Assembly: GCA_963931865.1 (NCBI GenBank)
Contig: OZ007512.1
Coordinates: forward strand, 10,425,160-10,489,159
Reading direction: 5' to 3'
Length of the DNA: 64,000 nt
Source: Axinella damicornis
Lineage: Eukaryota > Porifera > Demospongiae > Axinellida > Axinellidae
Of this stretch, positions 15,514-44,923 are shown one piece after another. The notes under the pieces were generated by a model. It worked only from the letters and a program-made list of their open reading frames with translations. It was not told the DNA's origin and did no database searches. Every line of letters begins with the position of its first letter. Position 1 is the first letter of the stretch. A program made the position numbers and the translations under genes.

Positions 15514-16129
15514 GCCCCTTGCAGTGGGAGTTTCTCTGTTGCCAATGGGGATTATCAGGCTAGTTATGAGACACTCGGAGGCAGTGTGACGTTCAGTGTG
15601 TCCGCTAGGACATCGGGATGGGTTGCCATTGGGATCTCCAATGATGAGTCCATGGTAAGCAAACAGATTACGTAGGTGTGAGGTGATAATTATGCTAAAC
15701 TCATTTACAAACGTGTGTGCGTGCTTCAGCCGAATACAGATATTATTGTTGGTGCCGCTGATGGGACAGGATTCTTCGTTGATGACAGGTTTGTGTGTGA
15801 ATGTAGTGACTTGCATTCAAGAAATTACTCTATTTCTCTCCTCTCTAAAAGATATGCATCTGCTCGGACTCAACCTCCAGAGGATCCGAGTCAAGACATA
15901 ACCAATACTACAGCTACACTTCAGAATGGCTTCACTACTGTGAACTTTACACGACCTCGTAGCTCCACTGACTCGAATGATATTTCCCTGGACGGGCAAA
16001 ATCGCTACCTCCTCTTTGCCTATGGGACAACGGTAAACGTTGCTGCCAGAAGTATCTCGTACCATGGATCTACCCGTGGTGTACTACAAAGCAGCTTTTG
16101 TCTTCCTCCTCTTGAGGCCTGCCCAGTTG
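15514..16129 (+). CDS. Adhesion GPCR: DOMON domain exons 1-3
   Basis: Exons 15514-15654, 15730-15788 and 15852-16129 join in frame. The product shows DOMON hallmarks: a beta-rich start (GGSVTFSVSART), GWVAIGIS, NTDIIVGAADG, a DDRYAS segment, then VNFTRP and YLLFAYG. DOMON domains are extracellular beta sandwiches found in dopamine beta-hydroxylase and cytochrome b561-type redox proteins. A likely heme-ligand Met sits in the SNDESM segment at the exon 1/2 junction, but that assignment is inference. Pairing DOMON with an adhesion GPCR is unusual. Confidence 0.8.

Positions 16130-44923: not shown

Follow-up and report, generated by a model that had tools for sequence, protein, structure and literature searches.

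The locus described here raises the question of whether a DOMON domain and a mucin-like repeat form the head of an adhesion GPCR, or whether they belong to a gene of their own that happens to lie upstream. The window, by which we mean the whole 64,000-nucleotide stretch of DNA that was analysed, covers G000:C8:10425160–10489159 of a 226-Mb eukaryotic genome. A gene on the plus strand was chained by hand from 46 exons between positions 15128 and 44923; it is in phase throughout and all 45 introns are of the GT-AG type. The resulting model has 3,084 residues and a single stop, at the end, with the first exon being tentative. By a crude estimate that ignores the choice of frames, 3,085 stop-free codons would occur by chance with a probability of 10^-72. 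When the chain is begun at about 15514, the start given in a preliminary description of this DNA, it gives ∼3,069 residues, in keeping with the length of about 3,070 residues stated there.

The features of the gene are collected in Table 1. In a six-frame Pfam scan of the window, with stops read as X, matches were found to DOMON (52.6 bits), Calx-beta (35 bits), HRM (40.5 bits) and 7tm_2 (54.9 bits). On the receptor model the scores rose to 173.1 bits for 7tm_2 (cut-off 20.6), making this a class B2-type seven-transmembrane domain, 85.1 bits for DOMON (PF03351; cut-off 32.7; residues 27–141), 60.3 bits for HRM in two stretches and 52.9 bits for Calx-beta; GAIN (50.8 bits), Ig_3 (50.2 bits) and GPS (37.6 bits) were likewise above their cut-offs. 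Thus the five families for which the preliminary description had proposed a profile search (DOMON, Calx-beta, HRM, GAIN and 7tm_2) were all recovered on the model. Judged by these domains, the product is an adhesion GPCR with predicted self-cleavage at a GAIN/GPS site.

Table 1. Features of the receptor gene: feature, position in the window, strand and basis of the assignment
Tentative first coding exon, candidate signal peptide MLGLGLCSFFCRFPASASV	15128..15186	+	ATG, hydrophobic stretch, donor 7.1; phase 2
DOMON cassette exon 1, 140 nt, Met of the heme pair	15515..15654 (alternative start 15525)	+	Pfam DOMON
DOMON cassette exon 2, 59 nt	15730..15788	+	lengths of copies
DOMON cassette exon 3, His of the heme pair, ends in phase 1	15852..16129	+	Pfam DOMON
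Mucin-like Ser/Pro stalk, exon 5, 498 aa / 1,494 nt, phase 1-1	16447..17940	+	30-base tandem unit
Calx-beta, exons 6–7	18221..18994	+	PF03160, 52.9 bits, residues 676–785
Ig / Ig-like repeats and one FN3-like stretch, exons 8–20	19185..29724	+	Pfam, partly by eye
HRM 1	30621..30886	+	Pfam HRM, 40.5 bits six-frame; 47 bits in genome scan
Spacer, Cys-rich/EGF-like, DSDGD (thrombospondin-3-like, by eye), exons 23–26	31613..33261	+	cysteines invariant, 7/7
HRM 2, split across exons 27–28	33459..34115	+	second Pfam HRM stretch; alignment
GAIN, exons 29–34	34632..37401	+	PF16489, 50.8 bits, residues 2381–2570
GPS cleavage motif HL^TSF, exons 35–36	37861..38534	+	PF01825, 37.6 bits; HLTSF in 7/7 aligned
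Seven-transmembrane domain, exons 37–44	39009..43633	+	PF00002, 173.1 bits
Cytoplasmic tail and stop, exons 45–46	44109..44923	+	hand model

The list of modules first drawn up from the letters therefore stands for the DOMON, mucin-like, Calx-beta, Ig, two HRM, GAIN and seven-transmembrane parts, and is weak for FN3, which reached 10.3 bits in six frames (cut-off 25) and is absent from the families found on the model at E ≤ 0.1. The Pro/Ser repeat of about 500 residues that had been placed after the DOMON corresponds to exon 5, in which a 30-base unit is repeated 30.9 times (16803–17728). The single Ig_3 stretch lies at residues 788–872 and the best I-set match (25.1 bits) at 1939–2003; the remaining Ig-like repeats of exons 8–20 were called by eye. 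The Cys-rich/EGF-like stretch had no Pfam match on the receptor model, and neither copper monooxygenase nor cytochrome b561 families were among the 12 Pfam families found there (E ≤ 0.1).

The part of the receptor from HRM 1 onwards is conserved. Its closest relatives, measured over residues 2016–2960, were proteins of Halichondria panicea (46% identity) and Dysidea avara (36%), together with Em0010g151a (35%), which was assigned to Ephydatia from its identifier. Judged by these relatives, all from demosponges, the genome itself is probably that of a demosponge. An alignment from HRM 1 to the seven-transmembrane domain of the window protein and six of 29 relatives (P0001, P0003–P0007) contains 126 columns and 19 cysteines that are invariant in all seven sequences, 14 of these cysteines lying between residues 2041 and 2339. 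The cleavage site reads HLTSF in all seven; this was taken from the alignment, a GPS regular expression having matched none of them.

A Cys-rich/EGF-like region with an HRM domain on either side was, like the DOMON head, not known from other receptors to the author of the preliminary description. It is present in demosponge relatives: Pfam found two HRM stretches in three of the four relatives scanned (P0001, P0003 and P0005) and one in P0006, and the HRM/Cys-rich/HRM unit occurs in receptors of Halichondria, Dysidea and Ephydatia as well as in two proteins from metagenomes. HRM is absent from the precomputed Pfam lists of P0002, P0009, P0011 and P0012. The HRM pair was accordingly ruled out as the novelty of the locus. 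On the alignment and profile matches it is an arrangement that demosponge relatives have in common, though not every sponge relative has an HRM. In the literature searched for two HRM domains, only the choanoflagellate GPCR paper matched.

What lies in front of this unit varies. The uncharacterized LOC135333251 of Halichondria panicea (P0001) has the same HRM-Cys-rich-HRM-GAIN-GPS-7TM core but a head of IgGFc-binding and FN3 domains; Em0010g151a (P0005) has the core with a Calx-beta head, the Dysidea avara protein (P0006) the core with FN3 and Ig, and the fourth relative scanned has Ig and FN3. No DOMON is listed for any of the first three, nor for any of the 29 relatives in their precomputed Pfam lists. 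Since the two-HRM unit is shared and the heads differ, the heads are the changing part. Around the window gene, which is itself counted, contig C8 has at least ten places with a 7tm_2 match across profile positions 74–126 (10.09–10.69 Mb), and two poorly modelled upstream neighbours appear by eye to have a common GAIN-7TM end. Among the matches listed, the only DOMON matches on C8 are those of the window gene.

The DOMON itself belongs to a subtype with 11 copies listed in the genome, its own among them, that have at least 42% identity across cassette exon 3; the other ten are 42–61% identical to that of the window. The cassette consists of three exons whose total length was divisible by three in each of the eight copies measured, so that it can be inserted between phase-1 introns. 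The first and second exons are 140 and 59 nt long in the window and in three copies on C3; the second is also 59 nt on C5 and is 62 nt in three copies on C7. (For C5 the end of the first cassette exon was set by hand, as the exon given by the gene finder ran on to 14534508.) From these lengths and phases, the DOMON is best described as a symmetric (phase 1-1) shuffled cassette, predicted to be joined in the same genome to Sushi, SRCR and Calx-beta modules. At C7:11615001–11635000 there are repeated arrays of the same DOMON cassette with Sushi-like modules, the latter recognized by eye.

We searched long proteins for the cassette twice. None of 513 candidates of 992–3155 aa matched at E ≤ 0.01, and none of 2,242 scored candidates of 1866–5938 aa matched at E ≤ 0.1; both searches would pass over relatives whose gene models are truncated or that have no five-residue word in common with the query.

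The preliminary description suggested that the DOMON could add heme- or sugar-dependent sensing to the receptor. In the DOMON of HYP1, residues M90 and H174 have been proposed to hold heme, by comparison with cellobiose dehydrogenase (CDH), in the accessible part of PMC10784544. A Met/His pair that we equate with these by position and spacing, rather than by structure or by alignment to HYP1, is invariant in the seven cassettes aligned (of the 11 listed) and in all ten copies of the subtype that were fetched. The methionine alone is not telling, since it is also present in all six loci of the other DOMON type that cover that place; the histidine place in that type is covered by one alignment only, which runs through an intron and shows tyrosine. 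The window DOMON is thus like that of CDH/CYBDOM (HYP1) in its Met/His pair, but the window protein has no match to a cytochrome b561 family and the domain is joined to a GPCR. Taken together, the conserved pair lends weight to the heme-sensing idea and makes heme binding by the window DOMON plausible, the binding itself being putative.

Alternatively, the DOMON may bind neither heme nor another small molecule and have a role in adhesion or as a spacer, which may also be true of human dopamine beta-hydroxylase (DBH); we put this at somewhat short of an even chance. A PDB search with the family profile returned human DBH only (E 0.00026), and a search with a single DOMON sequence returned DBH (E 0.039) and an unrelated chain (E 0.48). 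The DOMON of this sole solved relative is described in the available text of PMC4846438 as being without axial heme ligands, and the same text places its metal site at Asp 99, 114, 126, 130, 155 and 158. By a hand count on the alignment, all six are Asp in the window and five are invariant in the seven cassettes, so that the metal site appears as well conserved as the heme pair. The lack of subtype specificity of the methionine favours this reading too. Against it, Met and His are both invariant in the subtype whereas in DBH the position of the Met is taken by Leu, in line with the absence of heme ligands stated for its DOMON (PMC4846438, as far as accessible). In addition, matches to the CDH-cytochrome profile (E ≤ 1) were obtained for six of the seven members; the highest score, 20.9 bits, is below the cut-off of 27. 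The window protein differs from DBH in having no match to copper monooxygenase domains and in its union with a GPCR.

Whether the DOMON and mucin-like exons continue into the receptor is decided at the junction near 18 kb. Of the 18 introns that follow exons 4–21, 17 are in phase 1, including those on both flanks of the mucin exon. Exon 5 ends at a weak donor (3.0), and the DOMON-mucin frame, if left unspliced there, closes at a TAG at 17967–17969. The acceptor scores 8.0, falls exactly at the border of the Calx-beta module (18221) and has the matching phase. A little upstream of it, an ATG at 18196 reads MLCSVFLIVAVIIG directly into Calx-beta, giving a product that starts with MLCSVFLIVAVIIGFEQ. 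These elements allow for a pair of genes. The first would encode a secreted DOMON-mucin protein that ends at 17969; the second would start at 18196 and encode a receptor with a signal peptide of its own and Calx-beta, Ig, HRM and GAIN domains. In a variant, the receptor would be mucin-headed and begin at an in-frame ATG at 16344, upstream of the mucin exon.

The start at 18196 is strongly hydrophobic (3.41, compared with 1.98 at 16344), the highest value among the in-frame upstream ATGs; such ATGs are however common, being found for 13 of the 45 exons, and a signal peptide at this place would probably consume the first Calx-beta strand. The in-phase acceptor at the module border also argues against a receptor that begins there. 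No receptor start in a short initial exon was found between 16140 and 18799 in a scan for exons of 12–60 aa with hydrophobicity ≥1.6, donor ≥0 and phase 1, which by its design is blind to the ATGs at 18196 and 16344. Poly(A) hexamers were uninformative, as there are none in 17970–18196 and none in 44924–45500 either.

A gene finder was trained on exons 6–46 of the hand model, exons 1–5 being left out, and its agreement over exons 6–46 is therefore partly circular. At five of six intron costs it produced one gene from 14955 to 44923; at −12 the gene extended to 46965, and we set this low cost aside as over-prediction. At −18, 39 of the 45 exons were identical to those of the hand model. Among the held-out exons, exon 2 was found exactly, exon 5 was given another start, exons 3 and 4 were merged, and the first exon was different (14955–15076, a non-signal exon, in place of 15128–15186). 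One gene scored 694.0 against 670.6 for the best of eight splits at −18, with margins of 25.4 at −16 and 21.4 at −20. Each of these margins falls short of the 28 charged for a second gene, so that the split would lead by 2.6–6.6 if that charge were put aside, which favours two genes slightly.

When the costs were varied over 16 settings, a single gene was returned in eight, in all of which the stop was at 44923. With zero gene cost (four settings), the finder broke the gene at 17969/18196 every time, as two genes would have it, but shattered the 7TM core too. With costs of −3/−3/0 (four settings), the 18-kb junction was kept in three, whereas the 7TM core was wrongly cut in all four. On this sweep, the 18-kb junction is about as well supported as junctions within the receptor core.

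The most useful independent support for one gene is suggested by paralogy. In finder models of other DOMON cassettes, namely three copies on C3 and those modelled on C5 and C7, the cassette splices onward into extracellular exons, which include Calx-beta, Sushi and SRCR; these models are predictions of the same simple gene finder, one of them with an internal stop. As these cassettes run on into further modules, an onward splice is to be expected in the window gene as well. In a poor model of the copy at C13:969259–973370, only a single short exon, the last of the model and hydrophobic at its end, comes after the cassette, which thus need not precede another domain and may sit near the end of a protein, as the two-gene arrangement would have it. 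That hydrophobic end could be a lipid-anchor signal. Another sponge has two DBH-like proteins in which only the DOMON is intact, according to the accessible part of PMC12665527, which would again suit a separate DOMON protein. Weighing these points, we regard two genes as unlikely and consider with good confidence that the DOMON-mucin and GPCR parts form a single gene, in which the DOMON and the mucin-like stalk are most likely the head of the receptor.

It is less likely again that the DOMON exons enter some transcripts only, through alternative first exons, and that headed and headless receptors coexist, as the possible starts at 15128, 14955, 16344 and 18196 would allow.

For the single gene with a DOMON head, the 5′ end depends on where the first cassette exon begins. 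An acceptor giving a start at 15515 scores 3.1 and produces the 140 nt seen in the three C3 copies, and in two other DOMON copies, whose DNA was read, the acceptor of the first cassette exon is in phase 1. An acceptor at 15524 scores 9.2 and is the only one compatible with the candidate signal-peptide exon, which ends in phase 2. Upstream, a satellite with a 21-bp unit in ∼364 copies, purine-rich on the given strand, occupies window positions 4–7655. It is followed on the minus strand, at 7618–14433, by an open Helitron frame of 2,272 aa with Helitron_like_N, PIF1 helicase and OTU protease matches, about 1.1 kb upstream of the DOMON exon. As these two elements fill the upstream DNA, the actual first exon may be located on their far side.

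We next compared the design with those described elsewhere. In the literature searched (open-access journal articles, through titles and abstract starts), there was no DOMON-headed receptor, and the sole co-mention of DOMON and adhesion GPCRs was in a review of extracellular-matrix proteomics. DOMON has no occurrence in the main text of the Amphimedon GPCR paper (PMC4302439), the main text of the choanoflagellate GPCR paper or a 2026 adhesion-GPCR review, as far as these texts were available. The earlier statement that no DOMON-headed adhesion GPCR was known thus agrees with the protein searches, the 29 relatives and the literature searched, and the comparison it had proposed with sponge and choanoflagellate receptors brought up no DOMON in the relatives or in the available main texts. 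The Amphimedon paper (Krishnan et al. 2014, PMC4302439) describes, in its accessible part, at least eight adhesion GPCRs with HRM and two with SRCR repeats; Calx, like DOMON, has no occurrence in that main text, whereas the window gene has both. The nearest design found was ADGRG4, in which the available text of PMC13197933 describes a globular head, ∼2,000 flexible glycosylated residues and a SEA-HormR-GAIN part; its head is a pentraxin domain, while that of the window protein is a DOMON. The receptor class is therefore known, and the DOMON is an unusual head on it.

Our preferred reading, to which we give a probability of about 0.7, is that the locus is one gene for a demosponge adhesion GPCR with a conserved core and an exchangeable head, the DOMON cassette having been gained by phase-1 exon shuffling. 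In adhesion GPCRs generally, load or ligand on the head frees a tethered agonist after HL^T. Here the core would comprise HRM, spacer, Cys-rich/EGF-like region, DSDGD, HRM, GAIN, GPS and 7TM, and the DOMON would be held off the cell by the 498-residue mucin-like stalk and the Calx-beta/Ig rods. The ligand of the head might be heme or a different small molecule that enters its pocket, or else a surface partner. Binding or a pull on the head would load the GAIN domain; the receptor, cut beforehand at HL^T, would release its N-terminal part, and the tethered agonist TSFAVLV... would switch on the 7TM domain. Such a history suggests that in sponge adhesion receptors the signalling core stayed fixed while the heads were exchanged through exon shuffling. 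It also presents a case, open to testing, of a redox-protein domain that could control a self-cleaving GPCR.

A second candidate lies on C5, which together with C8 holds the only DOMON places, out of 52 listed, within 100 kb of a 7tm_2 among the matches listed. At C5:14533654–14592351 there is a candidate series of DOMON, SRCR array, EGF array, Ig, HRM-like, GAIN, GPS and 7TM, in which SRCR, DOMON and 7tm_2 are profile matches and the other domains were called by eye. As read, it extends from a good-looking signal-peptide exon ending at 14533750 to a tail ending at 14592351, and the finder joins its modules into one gene (14529208–14597925); between 14571.3 and 14575.0 kb only half a Calx-beta-like exon was seen, and continuity there is tentative. 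The next receptor downstream has Ig, GAIN and 7TM, with no SRCR or DOMON within the 20 kb read, and SRCR places at 14683821–14684225 lie near another 7tm_2 of the same cluster. SRCR repeats are already known on sponge adhesion GPCRs from the accessible part of PMC4302439. The C5 locus is possibly a second DOMON-headed adhesion GPCR, of a different family. A broader proposal is at present a long shot: at least two adhesion GPCR families (C8 and C5:14534228–14592351) would carry a mobile heme-type DOMON cassette as a head that senses redox conditions or heme, and their self-cleaving receptors would respond to heme, oxidants or phenolic signals within the tissue of sponges.

Several other features of the window were noted. 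Downstream of the receptor, there are a MATH/TRAF-domain frame at 46554–47414 and a sulfatase frame at 58184–59062, both on the minus strand. A 626-aa plus-strand frame at 49922–51799 has a reverse transcriptase match and a weak GIY-YIG match, and is presumably Penelope-like. Within the receptor introns, long homopolymer and microsatellite runs occur at approximately 19541–19568, 22998–23034, 34188–34548, 37971–38010 and 44259–44459.
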